39,732 bases of DNA. Origin: Bacteroidota bacterium (lineage in GTDB: Bacteria > Bacteroidota > Ignavibacteria > Kapaibacteriales > UBA961). Shown here in pieces: positions 14,713 to 36,273 of the stretch (its first letter is position 1; every line of letters begins with the position of its first letter). Location of the stretch: NCBI GenBank assembly GCA_018266765.1, contig JAFDZU010000033.1:1-39732 (forward strand). The letters are read 5' to 3'. Below the pieces are notes generated by a model. It made no database searches. It was not told the DNA's origin and saw only the letters and a list, made by a program, of their open reading frames with translations. Both the position numbers and the translations under genes were made by a program.

Positions 14713-16638
14713 ATGTGTGGAATTGCCGGAATAGTAGAAACTGCATCAGCCGAACCAAGTATCTCTGAAAGTATATTACGCAAGATGAGTACTGTAATCC
14801 ACCATCGCGGGCCCGACGATGACGGACTATGGATGTCCCCGAATCACAGATGCGGTTTTGTATTCAGACGGTTGGCAATTATAGACACATCACCGGCAGG
14901 GCATCAACCAATGAGCACGTCCGACGGAAGATTTACCATTGTTTTTAATGGTGAGATATACAATCATGCTATTCTTCGGCGTGACCTCGAAGAGCGTGGC
15001 TATCAATATAATTCCAAGACCGATACCGAAACAATTCTTTATGGATATAGGGAATACGGACAGAATTTTCTCTCTAAAATGGTCGGAATGTGGGACTTGG
15101 CTATATGGGATAATGACAAACAAGAACTCTTTTGTTCACGCGACAGAATTGGAATAAAGCCATTATATTACAGCTACCAACAAGGAAGATTTATTTTTGG
15201 CAGTGAAATAAAGTCAATATTAGAGCATCCATCTATTTCGCGTGAGATGAATATTAGAGAAATGACAAATTATCTGTCGTTTTCGATGACAAGCGAGCAT
15301 TCTACCCTATTTGAAGGTATTCATAAACTTCCTGCAGGACATTTTTTACGATTAAAGGCAGACGGAACGATTTCCACAGAACGGTATTGGTCGCCACTAC
15401 CACCAAATACGCCCTATTCTACTCTCTCCGAAAAAGAAACAATAGATGAAATTATGCGGCTGTTACGCCAAGCAGTCAAAGATAGAATGATGAGTGATGT
15501 ACCGTTTGGTGTGTTCTTGAGTGGCGGTGTGGATTCAAGTACGAACGTCGCGTTGATGGCAGAACTCATGGACAGACCAATTGATACATTTTCAGTTGGT
15601 TTCAAAGAGTTAGAGAAATACAACGAAATGGAATATGCCCGTAAAGTTGCAGGGATTTTCAAGACGAATCATCGTGAAGTTTTGATTGACCATAATGATG
15701 CTTTGCCTGTTATGGAAGAACTTGTGTGGCATGAAGACGAGCCGAACGGAGACCCTGTTTGTATTCCATTGTATTTTTTGAGTAAACTAACGCAAGAATC
15801 CGGTACAACGGTTATTCAAGTAGGTGAAGGAAGCGACGAGCAGTTCGTTGGCTATCCTTGGATGGTACGTGAACTCAAATTTCATAATAGTTATTGGAAA
15901 AATTTCAGACAATTACCGAAGTTTATTCAGCGTAGTATTTATTCAGCTACCAAACCTATCTTTCAAGCGCGCGGGCAATATCTTGCGTTAGACTATATCC
16001 GTCGTGCAGTAGAGGACAACCCTCTTTATTGGGGTGGCGCAGTAGATATAACTCCTTCGTATTTAGAACGATTGCTCACGCCTCAGTTCCGAGAATATTC
16101 CCGTTCCCCCGTTCAGATGGCAAAAAGACTTAATAACGATGCACTTTCACGTCAAAGCCACGAAGATTTCATTCAGCAAATGGCATTTGTCGAGCTTTCG
16201 CACCGATTGCCGGAACTATTACTCATGCGTGTGGATAAAATGACAATGGCTCATTCATTAGAAGCACGAGTGCCATTTTTAGACCACCGTTTGGTAGAAT
16301 TTTCGATGACAATACCTGCAAATATTAAGCTCCCAATAGGTGCAACAACAAAGCATCTGCTCAAAAAAGGAGTAGAACAAATTCTTCCAAAAGATATAAT
16401 TTATCGTAAGAAACAAGGATTTGACGCTCCAATCAAAGAATGGCTTCGCAACCAATGGTATGATTATACTAAATCAATAATTTTCAATTCTCATCTTGTT
16501 AAAAGCGGAATGTTGGATGCAAATTTTATTCAATTTATGTTAGATTTTCATCGAGCGGGAAGAGGTAAATTTGCAAGACCGATTTTTGCTATCCTAAACC
16601 TTTGTTTATGGCACAAACGTTTTTTTGAGAACAATTAA
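14713..16638 (+). CDS. asnB: Asparagine synthetase (glutamine-hydrolysing)
   Basis: The 641-residue protein begins MCGIAGIVE. Cys2 is therefore the Ntn-type glutaminase nucleophile that releases ammonia from glutamine. The glutaminase domain (about 1-215) shows HHRGPDDDG and FNGEIYNH. The synthetase domain carries the pyrophosphatase loop SGGVDSS (about residues 269-275) and ends with EARVPFLDHRLVEF and RKKQGFDAPIKEWL. The latter is typical of the asparagine synthetase family used both for asparagine and in glycan or secondary-metabolite clusters. It carries out the ATP-dependent amidation of aspartate in the cytoplasm. With no cluster around it, plain asparagine synthesis is the default reading. 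The start is fixed by the need for Cys at position 2. Confidence 0.94.
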   Translation: MCGIAGIVETASAEPSISESILRKMSTVIHHRGPDDDGLWMSPNHRCGFVFRRLAIIDTSPAGHQPMSTSDGRFTIVFNGEIYNHAILRRDLEERGYQYNSKTDTETILYGYREYGQNFLSKMVGMWDLAIWDNDKQELFCSRDRIGIKPLYYSYQQGRFIFGSEIKSILEHPSISREMNIREMTNYLSFSMTSEHSTLFEGIHKLPAGHFLRLKADGTISTERYWSPLPPNTPYSTLSEKETIDEIMRLLRQAVKDRMMSDVPFGVFLSGGVDSSTNVALMAELMDRPIDTFSVGFKELEKYNEMEYARKVAGIFKTNHREVLIDHNDALPVMEELVWHEDEPNGDPVCIPLYFLSKLTQESGTTVIQVGEGSDEQFVGYPWMVRELKFHNSYWKNFRQLPKFIQRSIYSATKPIFQARGQYLALDYIRRAVEDNPLYWGGAVDITPSYLERLLTPQFREYSRSPVQMAKRLNNDALSRQSHEDFIQQMAFVELSHRLPELLLMRVDKMTMAHSLEARVPFLDHRLVEFSMTIPANIKLPIGATTKHLLKKGVEQILPKDIIYRKKQGFDAPIKEWLRNQWYDYTKSIIFNSHLVKSGMLDANFIQFMLDFHRAGRGKFARPIFAILNLCLWHKRFFENN

Positions 16639-18265: not shown

Positions 18266-19066
18266 ATGTTTTTCCGTACCCTTACTTTCGTAACCGCATT
18301 ATGTCTTTTAGTTAGCTGTAATGTGCGTGGCCCCGTTGATGGTGAAAACAATCCTATTAATAATGATTCGCAGTACGCCTTAGAGTTTAATGGCACAACG
18401 GATCATATAGTAATTGAGAACATTCCAAAATCCATAGGTGTTAACAGCACAACAACAGCTTGGATTTATAAAACTCAAGAGGCAACTAATCAACAATGGA
18501 TTGTTGGTATGGGTGCAAGACAAAACCTTATAGTTCAAGAAGATGGACGTGTCGCTATAACCAACTATTTAGCAAAAGGACGTTCAAATAACAATCTTGA
18601 CCCAGGATATTGGTGTTCTGTAGCAGATCCTGAAAAAGTTCAGCTTAACACATGGGTGCATTATGCCGGAGTACTCGAAACAGATGGAACTCATACAACC
18701 CTCAAGTTATATCGTAACGGAAATCTTGTTAATGAACATACATTTGATTATGCAGTAAACGGTAATCCAGGATGTGATGGCTTCATCGGTGGTGTTCACA
18801 CTGGTTATAAAGGACCTGAATGTGATTTCAGAACTCCACAACGGTATGTTGGACAACTTGATGAACTTAGTATGTGGAATCGTGCATTATCCCAAACTGA
18901 AATTACTGAGGTTATGCAGAGAAAACTCAATAAAGACGACGAAGGATTAATAGGATATTGGCCATTCGAGGAAGGAAAAGGCCCCATGTCAATTGATAAA
19001 AGCAAGTACCATAATAACGCATATATAATTTATGGTGCTACCTGGGTTAAACTACCTAAACTTTAA
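18266..19066 (+). CDS. LamG-like (concanavalin-fold) lipoprotein
   Basis: The 266-residue protein has a lipoprotein signal (LCLLVSC, lipid-bearing Cys at about residue 18). One LamG/laminin-G-like jelly-roll domain of about 210 residues follows. Its marks are ALEFNGTTDHIVIENIP, the W-x-H-YAGV strand (TWVHYAGVLETDGTH), LKLYRNGNLVNE, FIGGV and QLDELSMWNRALSQTEI, ending GLIGYWPFEEGKG. LamG domains bind sugars or proteins; here it is probably displayed at the outer membrane. A GGAG ribosome site precedes the ATG. The next gene is a clear paralogue. Confidence 0.88.
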   Translation: MFFRTLTFVTALCLLVSCNVRGPVDGENNPINNDSQYALEFNGTTDHIVIENIPKSIGVNSTTTAWIYKTQEATNQQWIVGMGARQNLIVQEDGRVAITNYLAKGRSNNNLDPGYWCSVADPEKVQLNTWVHYAGVLETDGTHTTLKLYRNGNLVNEHTFDYAVNGNPGCDGFIGGVHTGYKGPECDFRTPQRYVGQLDELSMWNRALSQTEITEVMQRKLNKDDEGLIGYWPFEEGKGPMSIDKSKYHNNAYIIYGATWVKLPKL

Positions 19067-19097
19067 TTCCTATTATTTTTTATACTTTATAACAAGC

Positions 19098-20006
19098 ATG
19101 AACACCAAGAAATTTTTCTCATTAAATTTAGACAGATATAGAACTATTTTATTTGCATTCGGTACATTTACTATTTGTTTGTTCTTTATTTTAGAAAATG
19201 GATGCTCTTCTGATACGGTAACAAAAGTTGTAACTGATAGTATTTATATCCGTGATACTACGTTCATCAAAGACACAGTTATTATAAAACAAATTCCAGC
19301 AATTAATTCTAAATATGCAATGTTATTTAACGGTAACGATGCTTATATTTCTATTTCTAATATTCCGAGTACAACTGGTACAAATTCTACAAGAATGGTG
19401 TGGGTCTATGTTCGTTCTATTCCAAGTAAGCAACAATGGATTTTCGGACAAGGTTCTCGTGAAAGTATAGTTATTCAAGATAATGGTAAGGTAGCTTTTA
19501 CAAACTTATTTTCAACAGGTTGGGTGTCTATTGCAGATAGTATCGTTGTTCCAACTAATCGCTGGGTACATTTCGCAGCAGTTGAAACAGTTGATTCACT
19601 CTCCACAACGATTGCCTTATTTAGAGATGGCAACTTAATAAATATTAGAACTCTCCCTGAAAAACCTAAAGTGAATTCTGGGTGTGATTTATTTATTGGT
19701 GGTGTTAAACTTGGAGGAGCAGGAGAATGTTATTTCAGCACATTACAAAATTTTTCGGGGGTAATAGATGAGGCAAGTATTTGGTCTATAGCTCTTACAA
19801 AAGAACAGATAAATGCAAAGATGAAAGTACATTTAACACCTAATGAAAATGGGTTAGTCGGTTATTACTCATTTGAGAATAGTACTGGTGCTATAATTAA
19901 TGATGATAGTGGTAATAATAATAATGGGCAATTAGGTGGCAACGGTGCAATAATTATTCCATTAGGTTCACCTTTTATTTCAAATGGTAGTGTAATAGGT
20001 CATTAA
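19098..20006 (+). CDS. Second LamG-like lipoprotein, paralogue of the preceding gene
   Basis: I place the start at ATG 19098 (302 residues). The longer frame from 19032 overlaps the end of the previous gene and adds an implausible 22 residues. The signal is hydrophobic and ends near ENGCSS, so a lipid-anchored Cys is likely but the lipobox is not canonical. A short coiled or linker segment with repeated DSIYIRDTTFIKDT-type residues leads into a LamG-like domain. It matches its neighbour in order and in detail: QQWI.G.G.R, VIQDNGKVAFTN, NRWVHFAAVE, LFRDGNLIN, FIGGVKLG, DEASIWSIAL and GLVGYYSFE. It probably arose by tandem duplication. A strong terminator follows. Confidence 0.85.
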   Translation: MNTKKFFSLNLDRYRTILFAFGTFTICLFFILENGCSSDTVTKVVTDSIYIRDTTFIKDTVIIKQIPAINSKYAMLFNGNDAYISISNIPSTTGTNSTRMVWVYVRSIPSKQQWIFGQGSRESIVIQDNGKVAFTNLFSTGWVSIADSIVVPTNRWVHFAAVETVDSLSTTIALFRDGNLINIRTLPEKPKVNSGCDLFIGGVKLGGAGECYFSTLQNFSGVIDEASIWSIALTKEQINAKMKVHLTPNENGLVGYYSFENSTGAIINDDSGNNNNGQLGGNGAIIIPLGSPFISNGSVIGH

Positions 20007-20025: not shown

Positions 20026-20073
20026 AAAAAACCTCATCTATTGCAAAGAGATTGCACTTAGATGAGGTTTTTT
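20026..20073. terminator. Strong bidirectional intrinsic terminator
   Basis: A 15-bp perfect inverted repeat (20026-20040 with 20059-20073) has an A-run on its left and a T-run on its right. An inner stem (TGCAA with TTGCA) extends it. It lies between the convergent LamG-lipoprotein gene and HAD gene and can stop transcription from both sides. Confidence 0.9.
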
Positions 20074-20091
20074 ATGAATTCATGTTTTATC

Positions 20092-20745
20092 TTATTTAGA
20101 AACATTTATAATCTTCCATTCATGTTTCATCCAACTAATGTCTTGTTTATTATGGATGACGAAACTATTTCCGGTAAGAGATAGAAGCGGTATATCGCTC
20201 TTAGAGTCCGAATACGAATATGAATGCTCCCAATCAACATCTTCCCAAAAAAGAATTTTCTTTAGTTTTGTAATTTTCTTTGCACCCAAACATTCTTCAT
20301 CAATCCCTAAAAAATTATCATTTTCAAATAGTAATGCAGTAGAAACTACTTTTTCTATATTATAAGTCTGTGCGTAGTATTGAAGATAAATATCAAATCC
20401 ACCTGAAAGTATAATAATAGTATGTCCTAATTTTTGATGCCAATGAAGTCTTTCTACTACATTTTTATGTTCTCTTTTAAGTAATATTTCATTATTGAAA
20501 TCGAAAGCTATAGTCTCCATTAACTTCTTATCTTTTCCTTTCAATGGGGAAAAAAGAAAGTTCTTATGTTCTAAACTTAAGTCATCATCTTTTGGAGAAT
20601 TACTAAATAGTTTTCTTGCTTTTATCTGAGTTTTAATTAACCAGTTTTTTTCTTTTTTATAAAGATAATCCAAAAATAAATTAATTGATTGTCCATCAAA
20701 AAGTGTATCACAAAAGTCAAATAATGCAACTATGTTCTTGCCCAT
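20092..20745 (-). CDS. HAD-superfamily phosphatase (PSPase-like) with Cys at the +2 site
   Basis: The 217-residue protein has the HAD motifs. Motif I is ALFDFCDTLFDG with the nucleophile Asp10, motif II is IIILSGGFD, a Lys-rich segment (LGAKKITKLKK) provides motif III, and motif IV is YSDSKSDIPLL. The helical cap after motif I is of the phosphoserine-phosphatase (C1) type. The residue two after the nucleophile, normally an Asp acid/base, is Cys12, with Asp at +3. DFC(D/E)T-type variants occur among HAD enzymes of surface-glycan clusters, so this may be a real subfamily trait. It is the last gene of a three-gene minus-strand operon, and its ATG overlaps the preceding stop by one base (TAATG). 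The likely job is removing phosphate from a product made by the two upstream genes. Confidence 0.82.
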   Translation of the reverse strand: MGKNIVALFDFCDTLFDGQSINLFLDYLYKKEKNWLIKTQIKARKLFSNSPKDDDLSLEHKNFLFSPLKGKDKKLMETIAFDFNNEILLKREHKNVVERLHWHQKLGHTIIILSGGFDIYLQYYAQTYNIEKVVSTALLFENDNFLGIDEECLGAKKITKLKKILFWEDVDWEHSYSYSDSKSDIPLLSLTGNSFVIHNKQDISWMKHEWKIINVSK

Positions 20746-21911
20746 TATTCAAAACAAATTTTAATAGAATTGATGATTAAGGCATTCTCATCCTTATTTC
20801 GAGAAGCAATCCTTACAAATTGTCCTTCAAGTCCTATTTTATCAGCGCAGTTTCGAGTATATATACCATGACCAATAAGTAACTTAGAGACAAAATCGGT
20901 AGAAGTAGAACCATCTTTTAATTCAATTAATCCAAAATTAGCTAAACCAGGATATAACTGTATTTGTGGAATGGTACTTAGTTCTTTAAAAAACAGTTGA
21001 GTTTCTTGAATATATTTTATCCGTACTTTTTCATATTCTTTTAAGAAAGTATCATGAACATATAAACGAAAGAAATACTCTGCAAGCCCGCTAGAGTTCC
21101 AAAGAAAGCCATTTTTTAATAAATATGCAACCCTTTTGCTGTCCATGACTGCATATCCTGCCCTAACACCTGCAATTCCAAAATCTTTTGACATACTTTT
21201 GATTACTATTAGGTTAGGATAATCCTTAACTAATTCGGTTGCACTTTTCATTTCATACGTTTCATCTTCATAAGCAAAATGAATAAAACTTTCATCAATA
21301 ATAACGGTTTCTACTTCTGTAAGATTTGCGAGTAAATATTTAATATCAGAATATTTAACATAACCACCATCAGGGTTATTAGGATTTATAATAACAATAG
21401 TATCCGGCTTTTCTTTTTTCACTATTTGAATATATTTTTCTATATTAAGCCTATAATTTTCGCCCTTTTCTAATGGATTAAATAGTATCTCTATCCCATC
21501 TTTTACAAACTCATAGTACGATGAAAATGTTGGAATATTAACAATGATTTTATTTTTGGTGAAATTATGAATAACTGCTTGAATTATCTCTATTGCACCA
21601 TTCCCAATAAAAATACTTTTAGGATTTACATTAAGGCATTCTGATAATATCTCTGCAATGACATTATTCTGAGATGGATAGAATTCTAGAACATCACGCA
21701 TTTTTCTGGAATCAACTAAATCTCGTTTCAGGTAAGTGAAAAATAATTCAGTAGCGTATGGATTCGAGAGGAAACAAGCATCAACATGTATTTTGAGTTC
21801 AGGGATTTTTTCTGCAACAGTAAAAATACTTGGAGAATGTGTACCTGCCTCATCTTTCAGTTTTTTAATTTTAGCTGCAATTTCCTGCTCTTTTTGATTT
21901 AATGATATCAT
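20745..21911 (-). CDS. PLP-dependent aminotransferase or decarboxylase, HisC/CobD-like
   Basis: The 388-residue protein is a fold-type I class I/II aminotransferase. The PLP lysine is Lys242 in KSMSKDFGIAG, the pyridine-N aspartate is Asp206 (IIDESF), Asn178/179 lie in NPNNPDGG, and an Arg follows in GVRAGYAV. This pattern is shared by histidinol-phosphate aminotransferase (HisC) and threonine-phosphate decarboxylase (CobD). Both act on phosphorylated amines, which fits the HAD phosphatase encoded immediately downstream. An N-terminal helix of about 25 residues (MISLNQKEQEIAAKIKKLKD) is extra to HisC. No histidine or cobalamin genes are nearby, so a specialised pathway is more likely. It lies 5 nt from the ligase gene upstream. 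Confidence 0.85.
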   Translation of the reverse strand: MISLNQKEQEIAAKIKKLKDEAGTHSPSIFTVAEKIPELKIHVDACFLSNPYATELFFTYLKRDLVDSRKMRDVLEFYPSQNNVIAEILSECLNVNPKSIFIGNGAIEIIQAVIHNFTKNKIIVNIPTFSSYYEFVKDGIEILFNPLEKGENYRLNIEKYIQIVKKEKPDTIVIINPNNPDGGYVKYSDIKYLLANLTEVETVIIDESFIHFAYEDETYEMKSATELVKDYPNLIVIKSMSKDFGIAGVRAGYAVMDSKRVAYLLKNGFLWNSSGLAEYFFRLYVHDTFLKEYEKVRIKYIQETQLFFKELSTIPQIQLYPGLANFGLIELKDGSTSTDFVSKLLIGHGIYTRNCADKIGLEGQFVRIASRNKDENALIINSIKICFE

Positions 21912-21916
21912 AAAAT

Positions 21917-23209
21917 TTATTTAATAAAAGATTCTATGGCTTTAATTTTACCAGTTTTTTGACTACGAATTATTTCAGGAACTATTTGAAAAGTCATGGG
22001 TAAATCACCGACTCTATACGAAAGGGCAACTCTAATCTCGTCAAGTTCACTTTGTATTATTGGCGAGTGTTCAACTAATTCGATTCTAAGAGATTTATCT
22101 GTGTTTTGTGTTATTTTAAACTGCTTAATTTTCTCAAATACCTGCATAGCTGTATAAATATTCGCTGTCGGAATTTTAGTACTGTCATCTTTTAATAAAA
22201 TATCATCTGAACGTCCATCAATTCCTTTAAATGGAATACTTAGCCCTCTTTTACATTCACAAGCTCCAATGTTGTGCTCAAGCTTGATAGCTATGTCACT
22301 TGTTGCATATCTAATAAGTGGCATTACATCATTATTTAGTGAGGTTGCAAGGATTTGACTGTTCTCGTCCAATTCAACTATCCCATATTCATCGTTATTA
22401 TGATAATTACCAAAACTACATTGTTGAACTGTAACGGATCGCTCGTTTTGACCATACCAGTCAAGCACCTTAAAGCCCCAATGTTCTTCAATAGCTTCAC
22501 GATATTTTGGAAGAAAGGATTCAGAAGAAGTAACGACAGTTTTAATTGTATCTAAATGAACTTGCTTTTCTTTTAAAAGTAAACTAAAGATATAAATTGA
22601 ACTTGCATAACCTCTTATAATTTTAGCACCAGATTCTTGTATAGTTTTTTGATAAAACTCTAAGTTGTTCTCGTTAATATCAAATGCAGATAAGTACCAA
22701 ATATTTTTTCTTCTTCTTAAAAGTGGTTCGCCCTGTTTTGGAGCATAGCTTCTGAGAGATATAATTGGGTCATTTGGCTTATATTGATAATTCAATCCCA
22801 TACTCCACGCCCGAGCAGACATAATATTTTCAAATGAATCACTATAAAAAGGTAATATAAAATGGAAGGGTTTACCCGACGAACCTGAAGTATGAGACCA
22901 CTGAGAATATTTTTTATTTATTTTATCACTGATAAACATATCTAAGTTGTTGCGGATTAATTCCTTATCAACAACAGGAAATTTATTAAGTTCATTCTGT
23001 GAGAATTTATTAAAGTCTATTTTACTTTTTAAATGATGATAATAAGGCACATGGTGTACTGCTTGATAAAGTATATGTTTTAATTTATCGGTTTGAATGC
23101 TTTGTAGTTTTTTCTTGTCAAAAAATTGACTTTGCATATAATAGTTATAATTCCTTTTAAAATGTAATTCATTAAGGAGTACTCTATAATAATGGTGTAA
23201 CGGTTTCAT
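21917..23209 (-). CDS. CapK/PaaK-like adenylating ligase
   Basis: The 430-residue protein belongs to the phenylacetate-CoA ligase/CapK branch of the ANL superfamily. The ATP-binding loop TSGSSGKP (about 107-114), the WYGQNERSV motif with its Tyr-Gly-Gln-x-Glu core, a DGRSDDIL hinge near residue 337 and a C-terminal TGKIKAIESF with the conserved Lys all fit. These enzymes activate a carboxylate as an acyl-adenylate and then pass it to CoA or an amine. CapK homologues are found in capsule and exopolysaccharide loci. A Cys pair (ACEC, about 312) is an oddity. It is the first gene of the three-gene cassette. The DNA is AT-rich, around 30% G+C in samples, well below the flanks. Confidence 0.85.
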   Translation of the reverse strand: MKPLHHYYRVLLNELHFKRNYNYYMQSQFFDKKKLQSIQTDKLKHILYQAVHHVPYYHHLKSKIDFNKFSQNELNKFPVVDKELIRNNLDMFISDKINKKYSQWSHTSGSSGKPFHFILPFYSDSFENIMSARAWSMGLNYQYKPNDPIISLRSYAPKQGEPLLRRRKNIWYLSAFDINENNLEFYQKTIQESGAKIIRGYASSIYIFSLLLKEKQVHLDTIKTVVTSSESFLPKYREAIEEHWGFKVLDWYGQNERSVTVQQCSFGNYHNNDEYGIVELDENSQILATSLNNDVMPLIRYATSDIAIKLEHNIGACECKRGLSIPFKGIDGRSDDILLKDDSTKIPTANIYTAMQVFEKIKQFKITQNTDKSLRIELVEHSPIIQSELDEIRVALSYRVGDLPMTFQIVPEIIRSQKTGKIKAIESFIK

Positions 23210-30088: not shown

Positions 30089-31342
30089 CTATCGTATCCC
30101 AGCACTTTGAAAATTACCGTAAATGAGCAACTTATCTCTCATACTTGCTATACCTTGAATGGAAACCGGAGTACATCCCGCATCTGTACGATATACTCCG
30201 CCATCTAGGGATTGAATTTTACGTTCTTGAACGTCATATCGTGCGATATTCCCAACTGGAGTGTCGTTGATATAATTAAATTCACCAACAATAAATACAG
30301 ATTGATTTGCTAATAAACATCCTTTTATCAAATAATTTTGATATTCATTATTTCCGAATCCTGCCTTAAAAGTTATAAATTCATCTTTATTTATATCATA
30401 GAGTAACGACCCCGAATATGATTTTCCTTTATATTTTATAGTTGCATTATTAAAGTATATGTAATACTCATTCGCAATCCAATTCCTTGGTAAACCATTT
30501 GTACTGGCTACGACTTCTGTTGATGTACCGGATAATTCGTCATAACGAAAAATTCCTGATGCGTGATTACTTTCACCGGAAATATAGTTAACATAATTAT
30601 AATATATATAACGACCAACACCTATGTAATTCATATCTAAGTTATAATCTGCCCATGGAAAAAAAATTGATATTGGTGCTTTTTCGTATTGTTTATTACT
30701 GAGAGAGTAGCGCCATAATTCATCAGAACGATTGGCATTTAGTTGTTGAATATAAACATAATCACCTGCAATAAACATATTTGTTTGTTTCATTAAATCC
30801 AATCGAATTACAGTATCCAACTGTGTAAGCTGATTCCCATCAAATTTCATGATACCGCTTCCCCGAACTATACCCTTTTCAGTTGTAAAAAGTGAGTCTG
30901 TACTATAAAAATAGAGTATGCCGTCTTTCATAGTAAAGTACCTCATAAAACTAGCAGAAATCATGAGTTTCCATTGCCGTGTATCCAATGAATAAGCCCA
31001 TAAATTTCTTGGAGATGAATAGTCACCATAGTAATCGTGATAAAAGTAAAACAAGTGATGTACTGAATCGGCAAATACAGTTCTTGTTTGCATAAAATCG
31101 TAATTAACTGTAATTCCCGGCAATGGAATATCTTCCCATTGTGACCCATTATAATATGCAAAATAATTTACAGCAACTCTTCCTTGATAGCCATACTTTT
31201 CACAATCAACATCATTAGATGTTGCGGCGAATGGACAACTTTGTAATAACAGAGAAAACAATAGTAACCCAAGCAATATTAAGTATTTTCTTGATTTACT
31301 TTGCCATTTTACAAATGGGAATTGATTTATATTGTTTTCCAT
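30089..31342 (-). CDS. Propeller-like lipoprotein of unknown function
   Basis: The 417-residue protein has a basic N-terminus, a hydrophobic core and a lipobox LLQSC (Cys at about 36). The mature part is a series of aromatic-rich strands with repeated units such as LWAYSLDTRQWK, GSGIMKFDGNQLTQL, LWRYSLSNKQYEKA and GIFRYDELSGTS. This is the kind of kelch/beta-propeller pattern where a value is followed by a label. I recognise no family with certainty. It is expected at the outer membrane facing the periplasm or surface. No catalytic motif is visible. The start is supported by the signal; a shorter Met is not available before it. Confidence 0.7.
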   Translation of the reverse strand: MENNINQFPFVKWQSKSRKYLILLGLLLFSLLLQSCPFAATSNDVDCEKYGYQGRVAVNYFAYYNGSQWEDIPLPGITVNYDFMQTRTVFADSVHHLFYFYHDYYGDYSSPRNLWAYSLDTRQWKLMISASFMRYFTMKDGILYFYSTDSLFTTEKGIVRGSGIMKFDGNQLTQLDTVIRLDLMKQTNMFIAGDYVYIQQLNANRSDELWRYSLSNKQYEKAPISIFFPWADYNLDMNYIGVGRYIYYNYVNYISGESNHASGIFRYDELSGTSTEVVASTNGLPRNWIANEYYIYFNNATIKYKGKSYSGSLLYDINKDEFITFKAGFGNNEYQNYLIKGCLLANQSVFIVGEFNYINDTPVGNIARYDVQERKIQSLDGGVYRTDAGCTPVSIQGIASMRDKLLIYGNFQSAGIR

Positions 31343-31719: not shown

Positions 31720-34700
31720 CTACCTCACCACATCAACTCTTGTACAGTACGTTCCTTTCGTGGTAGTCAGTCGCAATACATACACACCACTGCCGAATAG
31801 ACTTAAGTCTTGGGTTTGGGTGTATATACCTTCCTGCTGCGCCCCGCTGTTGATAATTGTCTGTACTACTTGCCCAGTCAGAGAGAGTATTTCGAGGCGG
31901 CAAGCGAGCTTCTCCGGCAGCCAGTACCGGATATGCAGGATATTCTGCGCGGGATTGGGATGTACGCTCAGGAAGGTTGTATTTGGTAACTCTCGGTCAT
32001 CCGACTCTTTGCTTGGTATATCGGTCAGTGACACACCTTCTCCGAAGAGCTGGACTGTTGCCGGGCTGCCGATACCGTTATACTCAAACATCACGCGCCC
32101 GCTCGTTCTCCCAAGCTCCGAAGGCTTATATTTTAGATCTACTTTTGCGGTACTGTTCGGCTGGATTACAAAGCTGCCTCCGCCATTCACCGTAGCAAAA
32201 TCATGATCATTCGGACCTGCGAAACGTGTTGCTGTAATGGTCAGCGGAGTAGTGCTGACATTCTTAATCTCAATACTATCATGGAGTTCTTTGGTGGTCG
32301 TAAGTGGTACTTTACCAAAATCCAACATCTGGCCAGCGACCGTAATCGGCGCTGCGAGACCTTCACCACGGATAGTCTGACGGAGTGTCGTTGCCTGGGC
32401 ATAGAGTAATAGTAATGCTGATTTAACACCGGCTGACTCAGGACGGAATCGGAACTCGACGGTCTGAGCGCCGCTCACAGGAATTTCAAATGGCGGCATT
32501 CCGGTTACAATTGAAAATTGTGATGCATCTGATCCCGTAACTTGTAGGGAATCAATACGCAAGGGATAGCTTCCGGTGTTCTGAATATACGCTTGGACAA
32601 GGGTATCTTTTACATTTCCCACCAAACATTGTTTGAGGTCAATATCATGGGCAGCTCCTCCGGGTGCTACGACACTAAAGACAGGAGAAATTGCTTCCTG
32701 TACTATGCTGAGCGACTTTAAATTCCAGATTTTAATGGTATTATCATCACTGCCGGTGACTATTTTGGAGCCGTGCGGACTCCATTCTACCGTATTGACG
32801 GCACCGGAATGTCCGACTAATGTATAGAGCAATTTACCTTGTGAGACATCCCATATTCGCGCTGTTTTATCAGAACTCGCGGTGGCAATCATCGAGCCGT
32901 CGGGACTCCAAGATACATCATTAATCACATTTTTATGCCCCTTCAGCGTAAATAGTGGGAAGCCAATCGTGGACTTCCATATCACAAGGGTTGAATCTGC
33001 TCCGATTGTTGCTACTTTTGAGCCATCAGGACTCCAAATTACTGCATTCACTGCTTTGGTATGACCTTCAAGGACAGCAGTTAAATCTCCCTTTGTAGCA
33101 TCCCAAATCATCGCATTATTATCGGCACTTGCTGTTGCTACTTTTGAGCCATCCGGACTCCAAGTAATGGAGATAACATCTTTAGTGTGGACTTGTAAGG
33201 AATACAGTAATGTTCCATTCCTAGCATCCCAGATTTTTGCCGTTTTATCAGCGCTTGCCGTTGCTACTTTTAGTCCGTCCGGACTCCATACTGCCGAATG
33301 AACTTCGCCCGTATGTCCATTCAATTCAAATTGTAATTTTCCTTTTGCAGCATCATAAATCCGAGCTGTTTTATCGTCGCTGGCCGTCGTTACTTTTAAG
33401 CCATCCGGGCTCCATTCAACAGTACGGATATTATCTTTGTGAGTCGGTAAGGTAAAAAGCAGATTGCCGGTTTCCGTATTCCAGATTTTCGCCGTATTGT
33501 CCAATGATGTTGCAATTTTAGAACCATCAGGGCTGAATGTAGCATCGCACCAACGACTGTACGACAAGAACTTATTCTTATCATTAAGGACAGATAGTAC
33601 TCGCCCGTACTTTGCATCCCAAACTATCGGGAAATTGTATTGAGATGCTGCCACTATTTTAGCTCCATCAGGGCTCCACGCCGCATGATCAACGGCTCCT
33701 CCATGTCCTCGTAAATCATAGATAAGATTGCCGGTCATGGCATCCCATATTTTTGCGGTATTATCCATGCTCATCACCACTCTGTATCCGTCCGGATTCC
33801 AGGAAATGCTGTTGAATGGTCCGATAAAATGAAACAGCATAGCACCGGTAGTGGCATCCCAAAGAAAAGCGTTGTTTTCATTCGACACGGTCGCAATTTG
33901 TGAGCCGTCCGGACTCCATGCCATTGCTCTAACATCGTTATTCGTAATATCTAAATCATAGAGAATGCAAAAACTTACGAGTTGTTTTCCGGTTGAAGCA
34001 TCCCATATTCTGGTTGTACAATCCGCTCCTGCTGTCGCAACCCGCGAGCCGTCCGGACTCCATTGAGCTGTACTAATGATACCGGTGTGTCCTGTTAAAG
34101 TATAAAGGAGTGTTCCGTTGCCTGCATTCCAGATTTTTGAAGTTCTGTCGTAGGAAGCACTTACTACTTTCGTAGCATCGGGGCTCCATTCTATATCAGT
34201 TATAGAATTCTCATGATACAGTGAAAACAGATATTTTCCTGACGCAGCTTCCCAAATTTCAGCATCTCTTGAGCCAATTGCCAGGGCAATTTTTAATCCA
34301 TCCGGACTCCAGGAAACAAAGGTGATATAATTACCGAGAGTTATCGGGCGAGGGGCAACATTTTTATTGAGATCAAAAAGCATCGCGCCGGTATTGGCAT
34401 CCCAAATTTTAGCTTTCAGGGCTAAATTGCCGGATTCTCCGCTTAACGTAACTATTTTAGAGCCGTCCGGACTCCAAACTGCTTTCAATGCCACCCCCCA
34501 CTGATCATCAAGCGTGAGAAGAAGTTTGCCGGCGGTGGCATCCCAAATTTTTACTGTATTATCATCGGATGCAGTCGCTACTTTGAATCCGTCCGGACTC
34601 CACGTGATTGAGTTGATCACTTTCGTATGACCAATGAAGGAAATAAACGGGCGTCCTGTCGTACCATCCCAAAGTATTACTTTCCCTGCATTATCGGCGG

Positions 34701-36273
34701 TCGCAACTTTTGTACCGTCAGGGCTCCAAAATGCAAGGTCAACCAAACTTCTACCATGTCCATCTCCAAGAGTAAGTCCCAGTGTATCGATGGCATTGGT
34801 ATTTGCAGTCAATTGCGCCTGCCGTATCCGTATTTTACACATGGTACTTGCCGGCTTCGGTATATTTTTCCACAGATAGTTGAGGTTCGTAGCCGTTGTG
34901 GTAAGTGTTTTCCAGTCTGCACCATTATCAATAGAATATTCGATTACTACACTGTCAGTTGCCGGTATTCCCTCCCACGTAATAAGAGTATCGCTTCCTG
35001 CAATATAGCTTTCGCCTCCAAGTGGTGAAGTAATTTTGATGGTCGATACGATAGGTTTCTTGCCGACAAAGCCACTACTTGCGAAGAGATCCAATGGACA
35101 AAGATTATTAACAAGCGTAAATTTTCCAAAGACATAACTACTATCCTTCGGAGTAAATGTTACGGTAAGTGGAGTACTTTCTCCCTTACGAAGTTTGAAT
35201 GAAGTCGGTGAAATAGTAAACGCAGGGTTGGAGCTGATAACTGAGGTTACGTCGAAGTCTGCATTCTGAGCAGTGAGAGTAATAGTTGTACTCGCAGGCA
35301 CTCCTTGCTGTCCATTTTTAAATGTTGCACACGCCGGTGTAGGAACTAATTTTGCAATCGATTTTTTGGGGGAAGGATACTGAACCACTGATTTTTGACT
35401 CTCCCAAGTTAATTCAGCGGAGGTATAACCTGCTGCGCATCGTGCAGCACTTGTCCACTCAATAATACACGGACCTCCACCCGTCGCAATGCTCATTATT
35501 TTCAGTATAACATTCTCGGCTTCTTGGGCAGATTTTATGTTGTCGAAATACTGTCCTCCTGTTTGGAGTGACATATCTTTCATACACTGAGGTGACCGTA
35601 AGCCGATTGTCACACAATAAATAGCGCAATCTTGTTTTTTTGCTTCTTCAATTATCTGCAAGGTGTGCGGTACATTTTGGGGTAATCCATCACTGATGAG
35701 CAAGACTACTTTTTTGTACTTTCCTGTCGCACTAATTTGTAGTCCTCCTGCCATAGGATTGATCATCGCAGCATCATAATCTGTCCCATTCTTTGGTAGT
35801 AATGAATTCAAAGCATTGCTAAGTTTCGTTCGGTCGGTCGAAAAATCCTGATTGAGATAATTAATTACATCAAAGCTTGTGATTGCGCATTCACTCTCTG
35901 CTTGTGGTTGTGCGGTGATCCATGTGCGAGCTGCTGCTTTAGCGATGTCAATCGTTGGAGTGCCGAATTGAGCTACCGACATTGAACCGGATACATCTAT
36001 AACTATTACTGAAGATAGTACGTTCGCGGACATTGGTGCAGGACAGATTACGTTTGTAATCGTCTGCTGAGTACCATTTTCAATTACTTTCAATTCGCTA
36101 CTATTGAGAGAAATGGACTTCCCAGCTTTATCAAATGCGTAAAATTTTGCTTTTATCGTCGGGTATGCAGTTGTATCAATTGCAAAGAGAGAAATGGATT
36201 GTCCATTTGCCGACTGAGTTAGAATACTGATGAATACCAAGAATAACAGTACTACATGTTTCATGCGCAACAT
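31720..36273 (-). CDS. Giant secreted VWA + 16 WD40 + Ig-like + T9SS sorting-domain protein
   Basis: The 1517-residue protein starts with a signal peptide (to about residue 25, SANGQ). A von Willebrand A domain (about 85-265) carries the MIDAS DVSGSMS (93-99). About 150 residues of Ig-like/ASH-type sequence (FTISPTSFKLRKGESTPLTV) and a PF18962-like stretch (ITSPLGGESYIAGSDTLI) come next. Then I count 16 WD40 units of about 41-46 residues (WSPDG-SKVATAS-D-TAKIWDA), enough for two propellers. Two choice-of-anchor-D/ASH domains (about 1195-1430) and a C-terminal type A T9SS sorting domain (SVHPNPAQNILHIRY, then GVYVLRL, VVR) finish it. It is expected to be exported across the outer membrane and held at the surface. 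An internal start at 36264 (MKHVV) is possible. Confidence 0.92.
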   Translation of the reverse strand: MLRMKHVVLLFLVFISILTQSANGQSISLFAIDTTAYPTIKAKFYAFDKAGKSISLNSSELKVIENGTQQTITNVICPAPMSANVLSSVIVIDVSGSMSVAQFGTPTIDIAKAAARTWITAQPQAESECAITSFDVINYLNQDFSTDRTKLSNALNSLLPKNGTDYDAAMINPMAGGLQISATGKYKKVVLLISDGLPQNVPHTLQIIEEAKKQDCAIYCVTIGLRSPQCMKDMSLQTGGQYFDNIKSAQEAENVILKIMSIATGGGPCIIEWTSAARCAAGYTSAELTWESQKSVVQYPSPKKSIAKLVPTPACATFKNGQQGVPASTTITLTAQNADFDVTSVISSNPAFTISPTSFKLRKGESTPLTVTFTPKDSSYVFGKFTLVNNLCPLDLFASSGFVGKKPIVSTIKITSPLGGESYIAGSDTLITWEGIPATDSVVIEYSIDNGADWKTLTTTATNLNYLWKNIPKPASTMCKIRIRQAQLTANTNAIDTLGLTLGDGHGRSLVDLAFWSPDGTKVATADNAGKVILWDGTTGRPFISFIGHTKVINSITWSPDGFKVATASDDNTVKIWDATAGKLLLTLDDQWGVALKAVWSPDGSKIVTLSGESGNLALKAKIWDANTGAMLFDLNKNVAPRPITLGNYITFVSWSPDGLKIALAIGSRDAEIWEAASGKYLFSLYHENSITDIEWSPDATKVVSASYDRTSKIWNAGNGTLLYTLTGHTGIISTAQWSPDGSRVATAGADCTTRIWDASTGKQLVSFCILYDLDITNNDVRAMAWSPDGSQIATVSNENNAFLWDATTGAMLFHFIGPFNSISWNPDGYRVVMSMDNTAKIWDAMTGNLIYDLRGHGGAVDHAAWSPDGAKIVAASQYNFPIVWDAKYGRVLSVLNDKNKFLSYSRWCDATFSPDGSKIATSLDNTAKIWNTETGNLLFTLPTHKDNIRTVEWSPDGLKVTTASDDKTARIYDAAKGKLQFELNGHTGEVHSAVWSPDGLKVATASADKTAKIWDARNGTLLYSLQVHTKDVISITWSPDGSKVATASADNNAMIWDATKGDLTAVLEGHTKAVNAVIWSPDGSKVATIGADSTLVIWKSTIGFPLFTLKGHKNVINDVSWSPDGSMIATASSDKTARIWDVSQGKLLYTLVGHSGAVNTVEWSPHGSKIVTGSDDNTIKIWNLKSLSIVQEAISPVFSVVAPGGAAHDIDLKQCLVGNVKDTLVQAYIQNTGSYPLRIDSLQVTGSDASQFSIVTGMPPFEIPVSGAQTVEFRFRPESAGVKSALLLLYAQATTLRQTIRGEGLAAPITVAGQMLDFGKVPLTTTKELHDSIEIKNVSTTPLTITATRFAGPNDHDFATVNGGGSFVIQPNSTAKVDLKYKPSELGRTSGRVMFEYNGIGSPATVQLFGEGVSLTDIPSKESDDRELPNTTFLSVHPNPAQNILHIRYWLPEKLACRLEILSLTGQVVQTIINSGAQQEGIYTQTQDLSLFGSGVYVLRLTTTKGTYCTRVDVVR

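Follow-up and report, generated by a model that had tools for sequence, protein, structure and literature searches.

A three-gene cassette with a CapK/PaaK-like ligase as a candidate sugar-acid amidation module in a Bacteroidota genome, with relatives in environmental phages

The capsule precedent and the layout of the cassette

In Campylobacter jejuni, Cj1436 converts serine phosphate to ethanolamine phosphate and Cj1437 yields serinol phosphate, after which Cj1438C, with ATP, joins either phospho-amine to glucuronic acid, Cj1435 takes off the phosphate following ligation, and Cj1441 supplies UDP-glucuronate (PMC12409886, PMC13276843, PMC12096443). These papers bear out the capsule precedent on which an earlier note on this DNA had drawn, namely synthesis of a phospho-amine, amide ligation to a sugar acid and dephosphorylation.

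We analyzed a stretch of 39,732 nucleotides (the window) from a Bacteroidota bacterium of the Ignavibacteria, the 3.7-Mb genome of which is rated 100% complete. The cassette and its closest neighbours are as follows.

21917..23209, minus strand: CapK/PaaK-like adenylating ligase, 430 aa, encoded first in the cassette
20745..21911, minus strand: HisC/CobD-like PLP enzyme, 388 aa, predicted at best reading to be an L-serine-O-phosphate decarboxylase
20092..20745, minus strand: HAD-IB family phosphatase, 217 aa, third and last gene of the cassette
about 20026..20075, bidirectional: terminator-like hairpin in the interval between the HAD and LamG2 genes (fold -24.9 kcal/mol, z -7.2)
19032..20006, plus strand: LamG/ConA-like protein (LamG2), convergent neighbour, PF13385 1.2e-19
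18266..19066, plus strand: LamG/ConA-like lipoprotein-type protein, PF13385 9.2e-17

The coordinates and spacing of the three minus-strand genes were as the earlier note had given them, with 5 nt between the ligase and PLP genes and a 1-nt overlap at the PLP/HAD junction (TAATG). The strong terminator that it had placed at one side of the triad was also recovered; the hairpin folds at -24.9 kcal/mol as compared to -7.0 in shuffles, has A/U tails on both sides, and closes both the triad operon and the convergent LamG gene. It was missed by a simple terminator scan because of its hairpin loop. The G+C content is 28.0% for the HAD gene, 30.2% for the PLP gene and 31.0% for the ligase gene, close to the 30% noted previously, but the GAF gene has 40.3% rather than about 45%, and the window as a whole 37.5%. 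Since LamG2 (32.4%) and the ORF at 30089-31342 (32.8%) are also low in G+C, the AT-richness of the triad is not unique, and composition alone proves little. At 45%, the G+C content of a gene for a WD40-repeat protein (31720-36273; 1517 aa, nine or more repeats) exceeds that of the rest of the window.

No glycosyltransferase domain was found among the window proteins scanned, in agreement with the earlier note, and no UDP-glucose dehydrogenase was found in the cluster of the triad within the window; a TuaD-like UDP-glucose dehydrogenase is encoded outside the window. An origin of the triad from a prophage or mobile element was rejected, as the window proteins scanned include no member of a phage or transposase family. 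The two LamG/ConA-like genes (18266-20006) converge on the triad, either as a possible surface partner or by mere linkage. An AsnB-type amidotransferase, of another amide-forming family, is encoded near the cassette (14713-16638), and a 70% identical homolog lies one gene away from the triad in a related genome (G007).

Assignment of the three enzymes

The PLP enzyme matches Aminotran_1_2 (2.5e-34) and is homologous over its full length to PDB entry 6OUX (E 1.3e-116, residues 4-385, 382 residues). It is 46% identical, over the whole length, to a Sulfurospirillum plasmid protein that is annotated as norcobamide serine-O-phosphate decarboxylase and encoded beside cbiB. The PLP lysine in SMSKDFGIAGVR is invariant, as are the clade motifs GxHSPS and NPYA, and in the tree the enzyme groups with the SMUL_1544-type enzyme (support 93/93), far from another PLP type that is encoded by phages. 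SMUL_1544 was reportedly linked to norcobamide synthesis in a study from 2016, and its reaction, as annotated, is the decarboxylation of serine phosphate. On this homology, the window enzyme is best read as an L-serine-O-phosphate decarboxylase.

Two other identities were tried and rejected for this enzyme. Its score is 156 bits against the HisC model TIGR01141, for which the cut-off is 276.6, and 159.5 bits against the model for CobD, the threonine-phosphate decarboxylase (TIGR01140, cut-off 290.6), and no CbiB is encoded in the genome. Another locus passes the curated HisC cut-off with 285.8 bits, so the PLP enzyme of the triad is not the only histidine enzyme of the organism; had it been the sole HisC, the reading of the earlier note would by its own terms have been refuted. 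With CbiB missing and a separate HisC present, norcobamide and histidine synthesis both fail to explain the PLP enzyme. No match to SerC (TIGR01364) was obtained in the genome and PGDH was matched only below threshold, which we count against the serine-phosphate route.

The ligase has no Pfam match, but is recovered by the NCBIfam model DVU1553_fam_AMP for PaaK/DVU_1553-type AMP-ligases (2.4e-19) and by PDB chain 4r1l (2.4e-8). Its AF2 model (pLDDT 74) is most similar in Foldseek to PaaK2 (2y4o, 2.3e-18), and VIA-align superimposes it on 4r1m with Z 18.3 and an rmsd of 4.2 over 284. The motifs TSGSSGK, YGQNE, IRYAT-D, DGR and KTGK are kept in the triad ligases. Judged by the modelled fold, the phosphate-binding loop and the C-terminal lysine motif, the protein is an ANL enzyme with a PaaK fold, and it is the sole such ligase in the genome. 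Its identification as a PaaK phenylacetate-CoA ligase was rejected (45 bits to TIGR02155, cut-off 646); that the closest PaaK relatives of known structure act as CoA ligases counts against an amide-forming role, and the window ligase may use CoA as well. CapK-like ligases are frequent in polysaccharide loci, and plasmid homologs of the window ligase sit among glycosyltransferases. In the open-access literature, we found no paper that gives the reaction, substrate or acceptor of a CapK-type ligase, nor any report of a CapK/PaaK ligase in a role of this kind.

The third protein matches PF12710 (7e-21) and scores 128.6 bits to TIGR01490, above the cut-off of 98.3, which places it in the HAD-IB family. 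An AF2 model built from two sequences reached a pLDDT of 47 and was too poor for use.

Related loci in bacteria and phages

The bacterial search covered the phylum of the window organism. A ligase, a phospho-amine PLP enzyme and a phosphatase encoded together, the gene set of the C. jejuni type, were identified in the window and in two further genomes of its family (G002 and G007), with protein identities to the window of 69-89% and 33-67%, respectively. Between the window and G002 orthologs, dN is 0.06-0.20 and dS is above 1.5 or saturated, and the triad is under purifying selection in its family. It was not found in the other 96 relatives searched, and samples of 395 genomes from the phylum and 391 from the class added no triads beyond those known. 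The earlier note had made its reading depend on conservation in other genomes; the triad is indeed conserved, but in few of them. In an empty-site comparison, the relatives without the triad proved also to lack the GAF and LamG genes that flank it. A 59% identical homolog of LamG2 adjoins the triad in G002, and the LamG gene at 18266-19066 occurs, among 14 genomes of the family, in precisely the three that have the triad, two occurrences that are linked and so not independent.

The listing of neighbours that had also been proposed revealed that relatives of the cassette parts elsewhere adjoin genes for UDP-glucose dehydrogenase and glycan synthesis. We scanned viral contigs with the PLP enzyme, a wider profile and then a broader ligase profile. 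A search of INPHARED phages with the PLP enzyme and a viral-contig scan with a narrow ligase profile recovered nothing, while the broader profile recovered 39 loci; clustering by ligase identity reduces these to 29 groups at 95% and 12 at 70%. Six phage contigs encode one 829-aa protein in which ligase and PLP enzyme are fused; the N-terminal half shares 29% identity with the window ligase along the length of the latter, and the C-terminal half 46% with the window PLP enzyme. In four more contigs, the two are encoded by unfused genes that overlap and follow the gene order of the window, and all ten have a small HAD gene upstream and a UDP-glucose dehydrogenase gene directly downstream. Among the 36 ligase loci uncut by a contig end, the small HAD and the UDP-glucose dehydrogenase are present in all (36/36 each) and a PLP enzyme in 34. 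The PLP enzyme belongs to the second, HisC-like type in 24 of the 36, with 250-270 bits to HisC, just below the cut-off, and the amine may therefore vary from one system to another. Two loci (L113 and L127) carry HAD, ligase and UDP-glucose dehydrogenase genes, and the stretch examined in them shows neither a PLP enzyme nor an obvious replacement for it. The window HAD, when compared directly with one phage HAD, showed no similarity. UvsX, PhoH, transaldolase or G6PDH-like genes occur on several of the contigs, a trait of T4-like phages, to which we would assign the contigs on this basis. In IMG/VR, the block of HAD, CapK ligase, HisC-like PLP enzyme and UDP-glucose dehydrogenase genes recurs in glycan clusters of dozens of environmental phage contigs (L018-L028 and L094-L132), an observation that is broader than the finding in the window.

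Other loci combine the activities differently. In L017, a PLP enzyme 54% identical to that of the window is followed by a single protein with an ATP-grasp-like N-terminal part (TIGR04443, 6e-7) and a C-terminal part with HAD-like motifs, an apparent alternative ligase-phosphatase fusion; this 467-aa protein is encoded in a glycan cluster (L017, 7175-8578; L134, 6001-7404). In a Bacteroidota glycan locus with a flippase and a glycosyltransferase (G182), a 34% identical ligase precedes a PHP-domain protein and then a HisC-like PLP enzyme. The phosphatase is thus of the HAD-IB type in the window, a small HAD in the phages, a HAD that forms one protein with an ATP-grasp-like ligase in L017 and a PHP protein in G182, and such differing phosphatases and ligases at the same place point to selection on the three activities, not on the families. 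Glycan genes surround the ligase in G182 and also in G315. G182 was the only one of 18 ligase regions examined in the phylum with a PLP neighbour by the profile used, which indicates that a PLP partner is not a general feature of CapK-like ligases. Three CapK-like ligases occur in tandem in another region (L077, 6397-10703, G286). A Rivularia locus (L008) was rejected as related, with an ordinary CobD-like gene and unrelated neighbours.

Proposed reactions, alternatives and comparison with known systems

We favor the reading, at a probability of roughly 0.6, that the triad serves to amidate sugar acids, by serine-phosphate decarboxylation, uronic-acid ligation and dephosphorylation. By close homology, the PLP enzyme would convert L-serine-O-phosphate to ethanolamine phosphate. 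The ligase would activate a uronic acid, most likely glucuronic acid as part of a glycan or nucleotide sugar, by adenylation of its C6 carboxylate and, as the fusion, the neighbourhood and the ANL fold suggest, transfer the activated group to the amino group of ethanolamine phosphate to give a phosphoethanolamide, from which the HAD protein, by analogy with Cj1435, would strip the phosphate to leave a neutral hydroxyethyl amide. The reading of the earlier note is supported in part. Its sequence of steps (make a phospho-amine, couple it to an activated carboxylate, dephosphorylate) is well supported, as a prediction, by the ligase-PLP fusion, the phage block of HAD, ligase, PLP enzyme and UDP-glucose dehydrogenase, and the PHP variant in the bacterial glycan locus; the reactions themselves and their order are predicted. 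Its suggestion of a lipid, peptide or small molecule as acceptor fares less well, since the phage and G182 neighbourhoods, with UDP-glucose dehydrogenase and glycan genes, favor a uronic acid as acceptor over a lipid or peptide. The term stand-alone module holds for the window, where glycan genes do not adjoin the triad, but not elsewhere. The probable substrate of the window cassette is a uronic acid formed elsewhere, and UDP-glucuronate would come from the UDP-glucose dehydrogenase encoded outside the window. Against this reading, no glycosyltransferase or dehydrogenase gene adjoins the window triad, most phage loci have the other PLP type, and the window HAD does not resemble the phage HAD with which it was compared.

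The same module may instead start from dihydroxyacetone phosphate, with the PLP enzyme as a transaminase that makes serinol phosphate and the ligase forming a serinol amide. C. jejuni has both kinds of PLP enzyme with one ligase accepting both products, most phage loci carry the HisC-like type, and the unproven supply of serine phosphate, with SerC unmatched and PGDH below threshold, would also fit. We nevertheless consider serinol unlikely for the window, the PLP enzyme of which sits with the SMUL_1544 type and far from the other phage type.

It is more doubtful still that the ligase works as an acyl ligase of the CoA or carrier type and places a fatty or hydroxy acid on ethanolamine or its phosphate, giving an N-acyl ethanolamine or a lipid head group with no sugar involved. 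Phenylacetate-CoA ligases are its closest solved folds, the window triad has no adjoining glycan genes, and an Mla-type lipid transport operon is located 2-7 kb away. Against this, UDP-glucose dehydrogenase adjoins the ligase in every uncut phage locus, glycan genes do so in G182 and G315, and the ligase model is matched as well by enzymes whose final products are not CoA thioesters, namely PaaK-family AMP ligases and GH3 amido synthetases. A cobamide side pathway, in which the PLP enzyme feeds ethanolamine phosphate to the nucleotide loop, is highly improbable; the nearest characterized relative belongs to a norcobamide operon, but this genome, rated as complete, has no CbiB and no cobamide genes are located near the triad.

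Returning to the amidation of uronic acids, the chances are about even that a whole CapK/PaaK clade amidates glycan uronic acids with phospho-amines, as part of a portable charge-masking kit with a PLP enzyme, a phosphatase and often a UDP-glucose dehydrogenase, in T4-like environmental phages and scattered bacteria, which would give part of the uncharacterized CapK family a function. The similar phage gene sets suggest a widespread, apparently undescribed masking of surface-sugar charge. If so, capsule amidation as known from C. jejuni gains a second enzymatic route, and environmental phages carry a kit that neutralizes charged sugars on virions or hosts. The fusion and the four-gene phage block predict an ANL ligase that couples ethanolamine or serinol phosphate to glucuronic acid.

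The window ligase shares fold, size and core motifs with PaaK, NatL2, AjiA1, BT_0428 and the CapK-type ligases of polysaccharide loci, with only about 20% identity to the solved PaaK-like AMP ligases. The SMUL_1544-type enzyme (6OUX) shares the GxHSPS and NPYA motifs and 46% full-length identity with the window PLP enzyme, but its gene is located between cbiB and cobU in Sulfurospirillum, without a ligase or HAD partner, whereas the window genome is devoid of CbiB. The HS:2/HS:19 capsule system of C. jejuni resembles the loci described here in its phospho-amine PLP enzyme, ATP-dependent ligase role and phosphatase, and the phage blocks also in the UDP-glucose dehydrogenase. The apparent difference lies in the ligase, since a CapK/PaaK adenylating type takes the place of Cj1438C here and, in some phages, forms one protein with the decarboxylase. 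The phage four-gene block is a near-complete counterpart of the C. jejuni set, and its two PLP types serving one ligase type mirror Cj1436 and Cj1437. Unlike the C. jejuni cluster, the window cassette has no adjoining glycosyltransferase or dehydrogenase; by its gene content it is the same kit as the phage block, minus the dehydrogenase that is encoded elsewhere in the genome.
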